Below the pieces are notes generated by a model. It did no database searches and was not told the DNA's origin. It saw only the letters and a list, made by a program, of their open reading frames with translations. The position numbers and the translations under genes are program-made. From Rozella allomycis CSF55 (taxonomy: Eukaryota; Rozellomycota), in the NCBI GenBank assembly GCA_000442015.1, contig KE561158.1, positions 9,746 to 73,745 of the forward strand: a stretch of DNA of 64,000 nt. Direction: 5' to 3'. Shown in pieces: positions 54,022 to 63,668 of the stretch (positions are counted from its first letter, which is position 1; each line of letters begins with the position of its first letter).

Positions 54022-56336
54022 CTATGTTGCTTCTTCTATTTCTTCGTCTGGAACAGATACGTATCCTTCATTTGATACACTTTTATATTTATAGTTTTTG
54101 CAAATGCGCATATATAGGAGAATTGCCAGCACTAAAATACCCGAATACATGACGGATGTNGGAACAGATACGTATCCTTCATTTGATGCACTTTTATATT
54201 TATAGTTTTTGCAAATGCGGATATATAGGAGAATTGCCAGCACTAAAATACCCGAATACATGACGGATGTCCACATTTCATGATGTGGAATATTACCAAT
54301 TGGATCAAAAAGGTTAAATAGGATTACTAATAGGTTACCGAGAGCTATCGCTAAAAGCCATCCTGACTGGCAAATCGATTTCATCGATGAAGGTGCTTGT
54401 GAGTATGCTATATAAAGTCATTAATATTGTCTACCAAATTCCAAACCAGTTATACTAACCAATACTTCCCCGCATGTAAGAACGATGTATTGAGGTATTT
54501 GCCACAAAATTGATATACAGTTATCATTGCATTGAGAGGCATCACTAAGTCTAGGGCCAGTCATGGTATTATCAATTTCAAATTGGAGATATGCTGACAT
54601 TAAAAATGCTACAAGCGCAATTATCAAACCCGCGCCAATTTTCCTTAGTGCGGTTAATTTGATGCCAAATTTCCTGACAGCAGGGAAAATAAGTTTTTGA
54701 AATAAAGGAATCATAATTAAAATGAAAACAGTGTTCCAAACCTGCATTGATTCTGGAGGAATTGAAATTGTGCTGCCGAATATTGACGCTTTATGGTTCA
54801 TTTGCCAAACCTGTGCCGTCCATCTAGATCCTTGTTGATCATAGATCATCCAAAAAACTGACAGTGGAGCGAAAATAATCAAGACAGAAAACACAGACTT
54901 GATTTCATCTATAGTTTTGCGGTCAAATAACGGGTATGCGTAATATAACCAATGGTTAGGTAATTCGGCCTCAGATTCTTCCCTTTTCCTTTTTCTTCTC
55001 TCTTTTATTGCAGTTTTTACAACATTAAACATCAAAATAGAAACATTCCCACTTAGAGGTCTGTGTTTGTAGGATTTAGAGCCAATAACAAACAAGCAAG
55101 TCGCTACAATTAACAAGATCGCGGGCAAGCCAAAAGCCAATGGAAAACATTGATCAGATCCAAAACTTTTGAATTTTAATAAAAAAATTACCATTGAACA
55201 TTTTCCCTAATCCATGGAGTTATTATCATGGAAAAGAAACTTCCCGCATTTATCGAAAAATAGAACAGCGAGAAAAATAACGCTGATTGCTTAACCTGTG
55301 AAGCATCGAATTGATCACCACCAAAAGAAACAACACAGGGCTTTTTTGTTTGATTGTAATATTTACCTTGATACCTCCTGTACCTATAGCTAACAATAGA
55401 AGCCCAATTAAAGCCCCATAGGGCTGTGGTGGATTGCCGGCAACAGATGGAAATGCAGTCACTGCCATTACTATGTTCCCAATAATATATACAATAGAAA
55501 GAGTTAAAATTGTTCTATATTTTCCCCAATAGCTATCTGCTAAAATAGCCCCTATTCAAATATAACATTGGCGTCATACCGAATAATGGAAAAAAATATG
55601 CCAACATGACAAATGAATGATAAATCGAAGTAGCCATTCCATCAGGGAATCTCAAAAACTGTGCTAGGTATGTCCACAGAATTGCCCGCATTCCATAGTA
55701 AGAAAACCTCTCGCAGAACTCATTACCGATTATAAAAANGCTTCCCGCATTTATCGAAAAATAGAATAGCGAGAAAAACAATGCGGACTGTTTAACCTGT
55801 GAAGCATCGAATTGATCACCACCAAAAGAAACAACACAGGGCTTTTTTGTTTGATTGTAATATTTACCTTGATACCTCCTGTACCTATAGCTAACAATAG
55901 AAGCCCAATTAAGGCCCCATAAGGCTGTGGTGGATTGCCAGCAACAGATGGAAATGCAGTCACTGCCATTACTATGTTCCCAATAATATATACAATAGAA
56001 AGAGTTAAAATTGTTCTATATTTTCCCCAATAGCTATCTGCTAAAATAGCCCCTATTCAAATATAACATTGGCGTCATACCGAATAATGGAAAAAAATAT
56101 GCCAACATGACAAATGAATGATAAATCGAAGTAGCCATTCCATCAGGGAATCTCAAAAACTGTGCCAGATATGTCCACAGAATTGCCCTCATTCCATAGT
56201 AAGAAAACCTCTCGCAGAACTCATTACCGATTATAAAAAATACAGATTTTGGAAGTGAATCACTAGAATGATTATCGGACCCCATTATTTCAGTAGGGCC
56301 TCCGGCTTCCAATAATTTATCTGAATCTTCCGACAT
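54022..56336 (-). CDS. POT/PTR2 proton-coupled oligopeptide transporter, duplicated at two joins
   Basis: Twelve-helix major facilitator of the POT family: FFIIGNEFCERFSYYGMRAIL, LADSYWGKYRTI, GTGGIKPCVVSFGGDQF, FYFSINAGSFFS and the FWMIYDQQGSRW motif. It imports di- and tripeptides with protons at the plasma membrane. Introns of 28, 26, 26 and 27 nt were found. The N at 55739 is flanked by about 490-nt near-identical copies (55239-55738 and 55740-56230), and the N at 54160 by about 110-nt copies. The real gene should contain each once. Confidence 0.9.
55239..56230. repeat. Near-identical 490-nt duplication around an N
   Basis: The two halves, split by the N at 55739, encode the same helices of the peptide transporter with a handful of differences. 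The break points fall inside exons and the copies would destroy the reading frame. This is a contig-end overlap or unmerged alleles rather than a biological repeat. Confidence 0.8.
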
Positions 56337-56413
56337 TAAATTAATTTGGAAAAATCTAAAATTGATTTATAGAAACTGCTAAGAATTCAAGTAGGCTTTA
56401 AAAAATTTATTCG

Positions 56414-56860
56414 TTAACGAATTGCAATACATTTTCGCTTCTCCGCCGCCTCGCTTTTGGCGACTCTGAGTTTCAAAACGCCATTATCCAAAGTAGCCTC
56501 TGTCTTTTCTGGATCCACTTGTGCCGGTAATCTCACACTTCGCTTCATTTTTCCGTAGAACCTCTCCGTCAAATGAATTGTTCCATTATTTTCGTCTCTT
56601 TGATCTCTCCTCTCTGTTTCCACTGTCAGCACATTATCTTCCAAGTTTACGGAAATGTCCTCTTTCGCTATGCCCGGCAGATCGGCTTGTATCACATACG
56701 CGTTATCGAGTTCCGATATATCAAGAGCTAACTGTGGTTTAATATGAGTTGATTTAAATGGCTTTGAAACCTGCTTGTTGCTAGCAGGCTCATCAAAAAA
56801 GTCGTGTAAACGTTGTTCAATGTAGCGATCAAAGTTATCAACTGGTGTTATTCCAAACAT
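56414..56860 (-). CDS. Small heat shock protein (Hsp20/alpha-crystallin)
   Basis: 148 residues, no intron. An N-terminal FDRYIEQRLHDFF helix leads to an alpha-crystallin domain: YVIQADLPGIAKEDISVNLEDNVLTVETER, then FYGKMKRSVRLPAQVD and ATLDNGVLKLRVAK. The end is CIAIR, which supplies the I-x-I type motif for oligomer assembly. It is an ATP-independent holdase. The promoter has a perfect three-unit heat shock element and a TATA box. Confidence 0.96.
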   Translation of the reverse strand: MFGITPVDNFDRYIEQRLHDFFDEPASNKQVSKPFKSTHIKPQLALDISELDNAYVIQADLPGIAKEDISVNLEDNVLTVETERRDQRDENNGTIHLTERFYGKMKRSVRLPAQVDPEKTEATLDNGVLKLRVAKSEAAEKRKCIAIR

Positions 56861-57112
56861 ATAGTTATTGGTATTAATTATGGAAAGTCATAAGTGCGCG
56901 CCTATTTATATTGTGACCCATCGATTTCTGGAAATTTCGAGATGTCTGATCAGATTCGGAGAATTTCTACAAAATCTTATCNAGAGAGTCATTAGTGCGC
57001 GCCTATTTATATTGTGGCCCATCGATTTCTGGAAATTTCGAGATGTCGGATCAGATTCGGAGAATTTCTACCGAATCTTATCGAACGACATGAAGTTGAT
57101 AATTGAACATGT
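56861..57112 (-). promoter_or_regulatory. Hsp20 promoter with heat shock elements (segment duplicated at an N)
   Basis: A three-unit heat shock element TTCTGGAAATTTC lies at 56926-56938, with further half-sites to about 56970 and a TATA box (TATAAATAGG on the minus strand) near 56902-56911. The block 56882-56981 is repeated as 56983-57083 across the N at 56982, so the element appears again at 57027-57039. The repeat is probably an assembly overlap; the element itself is convincing. Confidence 0.75.
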
Positions 57113-57428: not shown

Positions 57429-58203
57429 ATGTACCATTTGCAAGCATCAATTCTGCTATCAGCTCTCACCACCTTTTCGCTAGCCTCCATCACCATAAAT
57501 TTCACCAACCAATGCCATTCAGACATCTGGGTGGGCGGCATGGGNCGGCCTGCACCTCCCAAAAGGCACCACACAATCCCTCAACCTGCGCACTCCGCTC
57601 ACCGCCGGCCGGTTCTGGGGCCGCACGGGCTGCACCAAAACCCCCACCGGCCTCGTTTGTGAAAGCGGCGACTGCGGCGGCCAAGAGAAATGCCACAGCA
57701 CCAGCGGCCAGCCCGCCACGCTGTTTGAATTGACTGTTGATTCGCAAATAACGTATGATATCAGCAACGTCGACGGGTTTAATCTGCCGATGCGAGTGAG
57801 TGTTGGCAATGAGGATGGTAATAGGTGCAAGAGTATAGAGTGTACGTCGATGAAGCTTGGAATGTGTCCAAGGGATTTGCAGATTTTGAATGCACGGGAG
57901 GAGGTGGTTGCGTGTATGAGTATGTGCAAGGAGATTGATGATGCTCCGCATAGAGAAAAGTCGGCTAGTCTGTCAAGTATGTTTAAACAGGATAGTGCTG
58001 TTAGAGATCTTGTTTGTTGTATGGGAGAGTATGGGACACCGGACAAGTGCAATGTTAAAGCATGGCCCAGTCTAGATGGAGTTAATATGCAGTCGATGAT
58101 CAAACAACTGTGTCCCGATGCATATAGTTACGCATACGATGATTTGACCTCTACATTTATATGTGATTTGAATACTAAAGAGTTTACAGTCACATTTTGT
58201 TAA
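57429..58203 (+). CDS. Secreted thaumatin-like protein
   Basis: A signal peptide (about 18 residues) precedes ITINFTNQC, then after the N at 57545 the frame gives TAGRFWGRTGCT, GLVCESGDCGGQ, VDGFNLPMRV, CPRDLQ, VACMSMCKE, CCMGEYGTPDKC, and the ending CPDAYSYAYDDLTSTFIC. These are the conserved cysteines and thaumatin signature. Such proteins bind beta-glucan or act in defence or wall remodelling. A TATA box lies near 57390. The stretch 57500-57730 is strikingly G/C-rich against an AT-rich background. The single N breaks the frame. Confidence 0.88.
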
Positions 58204-58283: not shown

Positions 58284-61200
58284 TTAGAATGGCTTCACTC
58301 TAGTCTTACTCTTCAACATAGCATACGTAACAGTCTACCCAATTCAATCCCATATCTTACCTGACCAGGCACCTTAACCTCACTCATCACCACGTCCCCA
58401 AAAACATCTCTATTCTTCTCCACAATATTCCACCACGCCTTTTCAAGCACCACAGCCGACCGACTGACCGGCGCATCCTACGCTCCCAAACACCAACACA
58501 GCATACCTCTCCATTAAACCTAATACAATTATCAATAACCAATTTAAAGTCGCTCAAAACTTGGCCAACATTCTCGTAAAAATCCTGCTGCAGTTTGGTA
58601 TGGATCGTTGAGAGGTCCATTGGCTGCTTGATTATTTTCGGATAGTTGAAGAGCTTCAGTTGCTTGTAATCAACTGGCTCGTTGAATGGAAACGCGAACA
58701 CTTCCTGTCTGATACCCTGGATCAGCTGAACAAGTCTGTGTTTTAAATCTCTAGGGATCGGGTTCTGCGGTTTCTTCAATGGCAGACATGAAACTAGTCT
58801 TGGCCATTCCTTTTCATAAAACAAATCCAATTTCTTTGCCATTACAAACACCTAAAATTGTTTCTGATTGAATCTATTTACTTCTGAATCATCGAGATTA
58901 AAAGTGTAAGCGTTTTTGATCATCAACTTGAAATCAAAGATGAAATCATCAATTGTTGCATACTTTTCAATACGCCCTGCGAGTGTTTTCAGATCCATGG
59001 GCATTCTGATAATGTCATAGTATTTGGGAATGGAATACAAGATGGCGTCAACGGGATCCAAGAATGGAAATGCGAATGGCTGTTTTTTACATTTTTCAAT
59101 CAAATTGTGGCAAACAATGATTTCTTCAGGATCCATTCTAGTGTGAGGCCAGGGTGTTAACCAACCAGCCACTTGAGTTTCAAACACATTTAATAATTCT
59201 AGAGCTTCGGTGTAGATGGAGGAATCTTGGTTGTTGTAAATGAAGCAGTTGACGAATACTTGTTGCACATCGAGAATGAAATCAAAGGTGGAAGAGTAGT
59301 TTGAGAGATTTGATTCTATTGTAGAGAAATCCATTGGACGTTTAATTAAATGAAAGTAATTTGGGATATTTAAAGCTACTGGATCAACCGGTTCAAGAAA
59401 ATGGTAACCTAATGGATGATCTTTTAAGAGAGATAGTAATGATTTGGCTTGATTTAAATTGAATGATTTAGGGAATCTACCAGACCAGCCATTGGAATAA
59501 GCTTCCAACGGTGCAGCTGATGTTAAAGAGATTGAAGGAGATTCAATTACTCTATCAGAGTGGACTATTGTAGGGGACTGATTAATAATTGGAGACTCTA
59601 TCAACGTAGATAATTCATCAATTTTGTAAGATTCATTGATTGTTTGTTCTTGTTGTTTTGAAGGTTTTAATTTTAATTTTATTGTAGAAGATTTTCTCCT
59701 TTCATTATTCAATTTCAATGAAACTTGCAATGATTTTCTACGCCCATCTCTTTCTCTCTCTCTTTCTCTTTCTACTTTTTCCCTCTCTAATCTCTCCCTC
59801 TCTAATCTCTCCAACCTCTCTAAATTTTCTAATTCATAATTCATTCTCTTTTGATTCCACTCACTAATTTCTTCATTCTCAATTTGAATTCTAAAATTTC
59901 TATCATGCTCACTCTCATTATAATCACCAATAACTAAATCCTGCTGAAACAATGACTTGACTCTAATTAAACACTTTTCATAAATCTTTTCAAGTTGAAT
60001 TGAATTTTGATAAACAAGAGAACCTAAAAATAGAACAATGAAATTTCACAAATACCTTTTTGATTAAAAAGTTGGCAATTTTTAAAGATTAATGAAACAT
60101 CAGAATCAAAATGTTTAAAATTTTTGTAAATGTTTAATTTAGATTCAATTTTTGATATATCCATTGGTCTTTTTATTTTGTTGAAATAGATTGGAATGTT
60201 TAATGCTATTGGATCTACAGGGTATAGAAAATCTATAGAAATTTTTTGAGATTTAATTTTATCTAGAATTTCTAAAAATAGATCTAATAATTTCTTTTTT
60301 GGTTTTGGAATTAATTGTTTGGAAATTTGAAAAAATAATTTTTCAGTTTCCAGCCATTCTTGTTTCTCTAATTTATTAAATGAAAATTTATTGTTTTTTA
60401 TTAAAGATTCAAAAGATTCAACAAAAGATTCAATTGATTTAAATTGGTTCAAGTTGTTTCTCAACAATAAATAATCTGGATTAGTTAAGACCATTTGTCT
60501 TTCTCTTCCTGGATCATATTCCAATCTATTAACCAAACAAGCAATAACGCGATCAATAGGAGGTACAGAGGGGGGTTGAAATGGTTGGGAATTAGTCACT
60601 GGTGAAGTAGTTGTAGTAAGAGGTGTAGTAGTAGCAGTAGAAGTAGTAGTAATTGATTCAACCTTATCTTTCTCTTCTCCCTTCTCATCACCTTCACCTT
60701 CCACCCCTCCCCCTTCTACCTCTAACCACGTGGTAATGTTCTCATTAAAAAGATTCAACAAACTCTCCCCCTTCTTATAAAACAACGAATCAGGGGTATT
60801 AAAAGTAAAACAATTCTTGAAAATCAATTCAAAATCAAACATCAACTGATGCAAATTCAAATACTTGCCACACAATGCCTTGCATTCAATAGTAAACAGA
60901 TCCATCGGCTGCTTAATAACCTTGTAGTAATTATACACTCGCTTGTCAACTGGATACTTGAATATTTCAGACTCTGGAATCAAGCTTAATTGATCTAGAA
61001 TTGATAATGCTTTTTCTGATATTTTGGTTGTGGAATTTGGAATTGCTATTATTGTTTTTATTGACTCTTCTGGAAGTGGATATTCTGGAATGTGATAACA
61101 CAAGTCTAGATATTTAAATATTGATTTTAATCTCTGAGGATCGTTTATTAGTTTATTAAATACATATTTTCTTATTCTGCTGCAAGTAGCATTAGCCAAT

Positions 61201-63162
61201 GCCATAAATTCAGAAGTTTGTATAGACATTGAAGTAGATATTGAAGTAGACATTGAAGTAGATGGACCATAAGTAGTAGAAGTAGTATCAACTGTAGCAG
61301 TAGCCTCACCTTCCTTACTCTCTCCACTTCCCTCTCCTTCCTTTCTCTCTCTACTCTCTCCACTCTCTCTACTCTCTCCACTATCTTCACCCTTATCACA
61401 CCACTGCCGTATGAAATCAATTAATTGTTGGACTTGCTTTCCATCTTCTTCAACTCTCGCAGGAATTTCCACATTACTCAACGATCTTCTACACTCCTTG
61501 CTAAAATACCTCTGCAATTTCAATCCCTTCTCATAAACAATAGACCCAGGGTCATTGAATACAAAACAATTATCAAACATTAAAACAATATCGCTAATAA
61601 AATCACCGACAGTCTTGTAATGATTCAACTTGTATTCAATAGTGGACAAGTCTATTGGATTAGTAATAATGTTGTAGTAGAATGGAGTTTTAATGTCAAC
61701 TGGGTATCTGAATGGAATAGCCTCTGGATGTTCAGCCAGTCTGTTTAATAGCTTTTTGCAGGTTGGAATAAATAGTGAAATGTCATCGTTGTTGAAGGGT
61801 GAAGAATTGATGGACTTTCTTTTAATGTCTAGTTGGAATTGATTGAATTCATCTTCAACGTCTGATAATTGTTCTGGTTGTTCATTAATTGATATTTTAA
61901 TTCTCATTGGTTGCATGAATTGTTTCTCATAATAGATTTCATATATTTGCATTAGATAGCCATCCAACATGGGATTCACATTAAACAATTCTAATATTCT
62001 ATTCTTTATCCATTCTTGCTGTTTCATCCATTCTTTGAATTTACATTGTTTTGTTTTTATCAATTTTAAGATATTAATCAAGCAGCAAACTTTAATTTCC
62101 AAGCAATCCCACTTGACCAAATCCAACACATAAGCCATCACATCCATTAGGGGATTTAAAGGTAGTGAGTTTGACGTAGTAATAGATGTACTATTAGCAG
62201 TAACACCTGAACCTGTAGTAGTAATACTTGCACCTGTACTATTAACACTTACACTCGCTGTCACACTTGCACTACTACTCTTCCCCCCATTAACCCCACT
62301 AACTCCCCTNACTAGCAGTTGCACTACTACTACTTTTCCCCCCATTAACCCCACTAACTCCCCTTTCATCACCTCTTCCCTCTTGAAGAAAAGATAAAAT
62401 TAATAAACTCTTGATGGCTTCTTTCCTAACAGAAATAAAATGCCCCTGTTTAGAATAAGCTTTAAACAATTCCAAATCAATTTCCATTAACCTAGTCATT
62501 TGAAATTTACAAAGAGATTCCAAACACGAAACAGTCCACGTATTATGAAACGATGGAAACAACAAATCTTTCAATCGGTACCTCTCAATCTCTGACAGAA
62601 TATCTTCAAACATGGGGTTTCTATAGTTCACTTTATTTCCTTTATTGATTATTAGAATAGATCTCGTTAATGATTTTATCACTGATGATACATAATAACT
62701 ATCAGAATACTTTTTAAATCATTTCAATTGTTTACTTGATCATTTCCATTGTCATTGTAACATAAAATATTCAACAGAAATTTAACTACAATCATTGGAG
62801 ATTGGCCATTCTCATATCTAGAAAATGAAATTGCTTCTATTATTGCCTATTCTTAAGAGTTTAATGGTTTACTTTTTGCATAAAATAGTTTGTAAAGTTT
62901 TCAAATGAATTTGGCTTTGGCACTGTATAACTCTCTTGCTGTTCAGAATAACAATATCTTTCTTTCAATGGAAATAATAGTTTACCTATAATAATCAATT
63001 ACTCTACTTGATTACCTCGTCTTGAAAAATGTTAATAAATATTTCAATCCCTTCCAATCCAAACTCTGATTCCCAACATGCTTCGCCAACGAATACGCAG
63101 CCTATTTGATTAGTCTTCAATCTTTACTTGCATTCTAACTCTATAAAATGCTTTTGAATCAN
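58284..63162 (-). CDS. TAF2: TAF2 C-terminal region fused to six or more bromodomains
   Basis: The upstream part matches TFIID subunit TAF2: FYRVRMQAAYSLAKH, KPNSFENFTNYFMQKAI, LLNILCYNDNGNDQYSDSYYV and SEIERYRLKDLLFPS. A Ser/Thr/Gly linker (with an N at 62310) follows. Six clear bromodomains come next, each with the PVD...Y...IK.PMDL.TI and N-C-F-x-F-N pattern, near 61480-61760, 60760-61000, 60050-60260, 59190-59430, 58870-59090 and 58500-58700. A degenerate one lies near 60400. Arg/Glu-rich linkers separate them. Introns are 26-32 nt. The N-terminal aminopeptidase-like part is cut off at the N at 63163. Confidence 0.82.
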
Positions 63163-63163
63163 C

Positions 63164-63668
63164 TTCATCAATAAATCCATTTGATTCACAGGAAACAAAG
63201 CCATATAAAAACGATAAAGAAATAGTTGCGATGAAGAGTCTTTTGGATGCTTACGAAACAAGAGACATCATAGCCTTTGAAAAGATTATTAAAGGTACTA
63301 AATAATAATAAACTAGAAAGAAAATGAGCTTTCAATAATGGGAGATTCCTTTATTAAGGATTTCATTGAGCCGATGATTCACCAGTTACGAACTTTGTTC
63401 ATCCTAGACGCTACAATACCTTACTCTTCTGTTGATGTCTCATTTTTGGCTTCTTCTGCAAATATTAATAAAGAAAGAATTGAAGAATTAATAATTGAAT
63501 TGTTGTTGGACAAGAAGCTACATGGAAGATACGATCAGATGAAGGGTGTTTTATACTTGAAAGAAAAGTATTCGGTTAGTTTCTATCAAATAGGAATAAT
63601 GTGAATGAAGAATTTTGGCAATCTATGAATGAGTGGTCAACATCATTGAACCGGTTAGTTGATGGAAT
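63164..63668 (+). CDS. CSN2: COP9 signalosome subunit 2 fragment
   Basis: The PCI-domain end of CSN2 is recognisable: [49 protein letters not shown], and the winged-helix part ending [14 protein letters not shown]. Two 26-nt introns (near 63295-63320 and 63569-63594) restore the frame. Both ends are cut by single Ns (63163 and 63669). CSN removes NEDD8 from cullins. Confidence 0.85.

Follow-up and report, generated by a model that had tools for sequence, protein, structure and literature searches.

The gene described here lies in a window of 64,000 nucleotides (nt) of Rozella allomycis CSF55 (GCA_000442015.1, contig KE561158.1, positions 9,746 to 73,745 of the forward strand), and its predicted product is a form of the TFIID subunit TAF2 in which the C-terminal helical repeats are followed by a tandem array of bromodomains. 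The gene occupies the minus strand from 63161 to 58284 and comprises nine exons, the first of which is cut by an assembly gap at 63162, and eight introns, all of the GT-AG type and 26-58 nt long (Table 1). A single N at 62310 divides the translation into an upper piece of 238 amino acids (aa) and a lower piece of 1302 aa. Once the overlap between the two sides of this N is merged, the frame is open from the gap to the stop codon, and no stop codon separates the TAF2 part from the bromodomain part; the last base of the stop codon is 58284, in agreement with an initial annotation made from the sequence alone. The continuity of the TAF2 C-terminal region with the bromodomain array, read on the minus strand through short introns, had been claimed in that annotation and is borne out by the gene model and by matches to the Pfam families PF25577 and PF00439. 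With a probability of about 0.9, we consider the gene to encode a TFIID subunit with a C-terminal tail in which six bromodomains are intact and a further one may survive as a relic, the fusion most likely being inherited from an early fungal ancestor and the number of domains varying by lineage.

The upper piece matches TPR_TAF2_C (PF25577) with an E-value of 9.6e-39, and in sequence searches against the PDB it aligns with residues 689-895 of human TAF2 (E 1.9e-30), while yeast Taf2 (6hqa) was aligned with the Rozella TAF2 core (E 2.5e-11). Human and yeast TAF2 thus share their core with the Rozella protein; human TAF2 is not known to carry a bromodomain. PF25577 and PF25316 each match the genome once, and searches with these two profiles revealed no second TAF2. 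A helical segment ending in RIKISI, located below the N, possibly represents the last TAF2 repeats, as it matches, weakly and colinearly, a profile built from the TAF2 C-termini of relatives (3.7 bits over profile positions 278-336, against a maximum of 2.2 bits in 500 shuffles and 2.4 bits for a Rozella linker control); searched alone, the segment has no Pfam match.

The lower piece contains six stretches above the curated Pfam cut-off for bromodomains (PF00439; E 3.4e-106 for the whole protein), all of which were also detected with a bromodomain profile of our own. On inspection, all six domains were seen to retain the pocket Tyr, which lies in the ZA loop, and the pocket Asn, which holds acetyl-lysine; these residue roles are those of BRD4. 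The initial annotation had counted six clear bromodomains and one degenerate domain. The six are confirmed by Pfam and by our profile, whereas the seventh stretch is a possible weak half-domain relic: it covers the second half of a domain only and is not significant in the profile search, although its score exceeds those of 2000 of 2000 shuffled sequences (best 8.4 bits). This degenerate-looking stretch, and the long branches on which several of the Rozella bromodomains sit, would fit an array that no longer reads acetyl-lysine and instead acts as a scaffold; however, the pocket residues retained in all six domains argue against such a loss of function, which we regard as quite unlikely. Besides the fusion and the six domains, the earlier suggestion that putative acetyl-lysine readers are built into TAF2 is also supported. 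Binding of acetyl-lysine, membership in TFIID and expression as one mRNA are predicted from the sequence. Ranked by total score, the best PDB match to the first part of the array is Polybromo-1 (PBRM1), itself a tandem bromodomain protein. PBRM1 has six bromodomains and is a subunit of a remodelling complex, without TAF2 domains.

A public protein of the same strain, P0001 ("Bromodomain-containing protein", 1049 aa), is the top match of the window protein, with 100% identity over the aligned part; over longer spans the two main pieces are 80% and 84% identical, the differences being mostly gaps in linkers. Like our model, P0001 contains six bromodomains, and the two agree in the four downstream splice joins; its translation begins with an in-frame Met shortly below the Ser/Gly/Thr linker, its model omits the relic stretch, and several of its linkers differ. 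It is taken here to represent another assembly or haplotype of R. allomycis.

Table 1 Features of the TAF2-bromodomain locus and its surroundings in window coordinates (own profile, bromodomain profile built in this work; i-E, independent E-value)
Feature	Position	Strand	Basis or remark
Exons 1-4	63161-63128, 63101-63016, 62957-62873, 62846-62736	-	gene model
Exons 5-6	62709-60056 (N at 62310 inside), 60023-58882	-	gene model
Exons 7-9	58851-58507, 58477-58361, 58334-58284	-	gene model
TAF2 C-terminal helical repeats, short exons 1-4 and start of exon 5	62311..63161	-	PF25577, PDB sequence search, exon model; cut at gap 63162
Ser/Gly/Thr linker with N at 62310	62256..62365	-	probable contig-end overlap left unmerged; same frame on either side
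Helical segment ending in RIKISI, possibly last TAF2 repeats	61887..62159	-	weak colinear match to TAF2 C-terminal profile of relatives
Bromodomain 1	61497..61769	-	Pfam; own profile i-E 3e-28
Bromodomain 2	60741..61019	-	Pfam; own profile i-E 2e-25
Degenerate half bromodomain, possible relic	60330..60500	-	own profile 9.1 bits, i-E 8
Bromodomain 3, intron 60055-60024 inside	59974..60287	-	Pfam; own profile i-E 2e-29
Bromodomain 4	59176..59460	-	Pfam; own profile i-E 4e-28
Bromodomain 5, intron 58881-58852 inside	58810..59124	-	Pfam; own profile i-E 4e-26
Bromodomain 6, intron 58506-58478 inside	58427..58743	-	Pfam; own profile i-E 4e-27
C-terminal tail and stop codon	58284..58426	-	gene model
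Assembly gap cutting TAF2 (minus) and PCI-domain gene (plus)	63162..63162		no overlap of sides
PCI-domain gene, 3' fragment	63163-63604	+	PF01399 E 9.7e-12; 5' end cut by gap 63162
Ns with overlapping sides	28730, 40119, 42501, 52459, 54160, 55739, 56982, 62310		
POT-family peptide transporter	54421-56366	-	PF00854 E 1.1e-56 for 54424-55206
Small heat-shock protein	56414-56887	-	PF00011 E 2.4e-23
Thaumatin-family protein	57499-58203	+	PF00314 E 6.4e-46

The N at 62310, across which the two parts are joined, most likely marks a place where two contig ends overlap without having been merged, to judge from the bases around it. The two sides have 29 nt exactly in common and 39 nt at 97% identity, and when small gaps are allowed the likeness continues towards the N; with the overlap merged, the frame is identical on both sides. 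With up to 2 mismatches permitted, and very common words left out of the search, the 26-base core of the overlap has no further occurrence in the 9.97 Mb genome. The window has 15 single Ns, eight of which show overlapping sides (Table 1): at seven of them the overlaps comprise 21-144 nt at 91.6-98.2% identity in flanks of 300 bases, and the overlap at 55739 extends over 499 nt at 97.6%. Sequence beside these eight Ns probably appears double as an artefact of assembly, and it would be a mistake to read it as tandem repeats.

Alternatively, a TAF2 fragment and a separate, possibly neighbouring, bromodomain gene could have been falsely joined at 62310. Such a chimera would agree with the single N as the mark of a scaffold join, with the low complexity of the linker, with the seemingly unreliable join nearby at 63162 (the other half of TAF2 being on another contig, C96), and with P0001, whose initial Met lies shortly below the N and whose name refers to bromodomains only. 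It is nevertheless judged very improbable, given that the two sides share a stretch unique to this spot in the genome and read in the same frame, that overlapping sides recur at other Ns of the window, and that no stop codon lies between the merged parts. Moreover, a chance mis-join is unlikely because a TAF2 core followed by bromodomains is also found in 118 of the 120 listed relatives considered below; these proteins, in which the TAF2 and bromodomain parts follow each other as they do here, support the join independently of the overlap.

The peptidase-like and Ig-like parts of TAF2 lie outside the window, at approximately C96:3041-4707 (PF25316, E 9.9e-18; PF01433, E 2e-9), and this half ends at another single N, C96:3040. 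A domain search of the gene, as proposed in the initial annotation, returned the TAF2 C-terminal region and the six bromodomains within the window, but the N-terminal half on C96. Because PF25577 and PF25316 have a single match each in the genome, the C96 piece and the window piece most likely belong to a single TAF2 gene, with some 75-90 codons missing between them (estimated by eye against P0003, a TAF2 of Dispira simplex). No overlap of the sides was seen at the N at 63162, and at least one of the scaffold joins at 63162 and C96:3040 is most likely wrong or mis-sized; the PCI-domain gene beyond the gap, whose fragment we take by its motifs to resemble CSN2, is therefore not a safe neighbour of TAF2. 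The join at C96:3040 is itself doubtful. On this short contig (C96:1-8000), the TAF2 half is accompanied by what we presume to be an endonuclease IV-like fragment and transposon-gene-like stretches; two C96 stretches tried against Pfam gave no match.

Relatives were collected with the TAF2 region of P0003 as seed, which yielded 374 proteins, and the counts below refer to the best 120 of these. Since the seed bears the fusion, candidate length was limited to 0.55-1.75 times that of the seed, and 254 matches are outside the list, TAF2 proteins free of the fusion are under-sampled in these counts. At least one bromodomain is present on TAF2 in 118 of the 120, as found both from the listed Pfam domains and with our own profile, and the two proteins without one are records marked partial. 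The fusion is thus present in nearly all listed non-ascomycete fungal relatives, and the view of the initial annotation that the architecture is unusual is not supported. The Rozella protein is an early-branching example of an architecture common in fungi, not a new kind of protein. Nor is the claim of an unusually high domain number supported: three or four bromodomains are carried by 94 proteins (66 and 28, respectively), five by 4, two by 2 and one by 3, but six, as in Rozella with its possible additional relic, by 14, and P0091, a model marked low quality, shows seven pieces, of which three are short. A first version of the bromodomain profile contained one false and one doubled seed; the cleaned profile gave the same counts except for P0091 (seven, previously six).

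Like the Rozella protein, the fungal proteins (Mucor, Coemansia, Grifola, Kwoniella and others) have TAF2 Ig-like and helical-repeat parts followed by tandem bromodomains. The genera named among the 120 include Dimargaris, Coemansia, Mortierella, Mucor, Endogone, Umbelopsis and many mushroom-forming genera; these relatives span several fungal phyla. Six bromodomains are also found in TAF2 of Mucor, Absidia, Cunninghamella and Endogone, and three each in TAF2 of Sympodiomycopsis and Kwoniella (first search). Two sampled ascomycete TAF2 proteins, from Coniosporium and Cladorrhinum, have no bromodomain detectable with our profile. A search with the Rozella composite TAF2 was insensitive, in that it did not recover fungal TAF2 proteins known from other searches; all that it gave were three animal TAF2 proteins (two from Meloidogyne and one from Tropilaelaps, partial), in which our profile detected no bromodomain.

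The relationships among the individual domains bear on whether the fusion arose independently in Rozella, as a lineage-specific invention. Rozella bromodomains 1-4 cluster in a 70-row tree (support 97/92), and 1-3 in a 42-row tree (88/74), as expected from copying within the lineage. However, the bromodomains come after the TAF2 C-terminal repeats in relatives of several fungal phyla, and groupings of Rozella domains 1-4 with the like-numbered domains of Mucor, Absidia and Endogone were not rejected in approximately unbiased (AU) tests (p 0.121, 0.171, 0.138 and 0.074), the groups for which were picked after viewing the first tree. We therefore consider an independent origin unlikely, and inheritance of the fusion from an early fungal ancestor the better reading. 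The fusion may be as old as the Fungi and have been lost in Ascomycota. We lean slightly towards a scenario in which the ancestor of fungi already had a TAF2 that read through several bromodomains, such that reading of acetylated promoters by TFIID through TAF2 would be ancestral; ascomycete yeasts would have lost it, using instead Taf14 (YEATS) at the Taf2 C-terminus together with Bdf1, and Rozella would have expanded the array to six or seven domains on its own.

A number of observations weigh against an inherited TAF2-bromodomain fusion as read here. The N at 62310, flagged as a caveat in the initial annotation, turned out to resemble a contig overlap that supports the join, but this overlap is short (39 nt, 97%) and its outermost bases match poorly, and a literal reading of the N as one base breaks the frame. 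It is possible that an in-frame internal repeat stands beside a small true gap at this position, in which case the frame would be the same. The join is read from the assembled sequence, and P0001 begins below 62310 and hence does not span the N. The helical segment directly below the N resembles TAF2 weakly, and hhalign found no match for it. Furthermore, a different contig carries the N-terminal half of TAF2, and the part between the two halves was not found. The sample of relatives is biased towards the fusion by its bromodomain-bearing seed, the length limit and the restriction to the best 120 of 374, and no named chytrid is among the relatives found, the search with the Rozella composite having had low sensitivity.

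Reading of acetylation by TFIID through TAF1 or Bdf1 in other organisms had been contrasted with reading through TAF2 in Rozella. The TAF1 tandem bromodomains and yeast Bdf1 (a BET protein) are TFIID-linked acetyl-lysine readers that reside on TAF1 or on a separate BET protein, but the contrast is weaker than implied, as in Rozella, too, a bromodomain lies close to the TAF1 core and a BET protein is encoded. A TAF1 core is encoded on C101 (PF12157, E 4.0e-135; one TAG inside the match, probably in an intron), and downstream of it on the same strand a bromodomain is split between two frames (C101:162500-167000), which is assigned to TAF1 by its position; a BET protein with two bromodomains and an ET domain is encoded on C164. 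The TAF2 readers are therefore additional, and replacement of the TAF1 or BET readers by the TAF2 array is not supported.

Several of the fusion proteins are already named Transcription initiation factor TFIID subunit 2 in UniRef, with a Pfam bromodomain. In the papers searched, phrases for a TAF2 bromodomain gave no match, and none mentions Rozella together with bromodomains, although Antonova et al. 2019 (Genes Dev), which surveys TFIID evolution, may already describe the fusion. In PMC12844337, the Cryptococcus ortholog of TAF2 appears among proteins that match Spt7 through the bromodomain only, and the consulted parts of PMC1199594 and PMC3879359 contain nothing on a TAF2 bromodomain.

As for other genes noted nearby, the thaumatin-family gene is arranged tail-to-tail with the TAF2 gene. 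The upstream exons of the POT-family transporter appear twice, probably as a result of the overlap at 55739. The small heat-shock gene lies between these two (Table 1).

In yeast TFIID, according to the consulted part of PMC6220335, Taf2 is located on promoter DNA, and a stalk is built there from Taf14 and the C-terminal ends of Taf8 and Taf2. Acetyl-lysine readers would come to lie near the same spot if TAF2 bore a bromodomain tail. The peptidase-like and helical-repeat core of Rozella TAF2 would dock in TFIID and touch promoter DNA downstream of the start site, while the flexible bromodomain tail would bind acetylated nucleosome tails, or acetylated TFIID partners, next to the core. Many weak contacts of this tail could help to keep TFIID at active promoters.

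Chromatin reading by TFIID is taught from animals, with TAF1, and from budding yeast, with Bdf1 and Taf14. To judge from the fusion in Rozella and in the listed relatives, reading of acetylation via TAF2 may be widespread among non-ascomycete fungi, with yeast as the exception; what the Rozella case adds is the time depth of the fusion.

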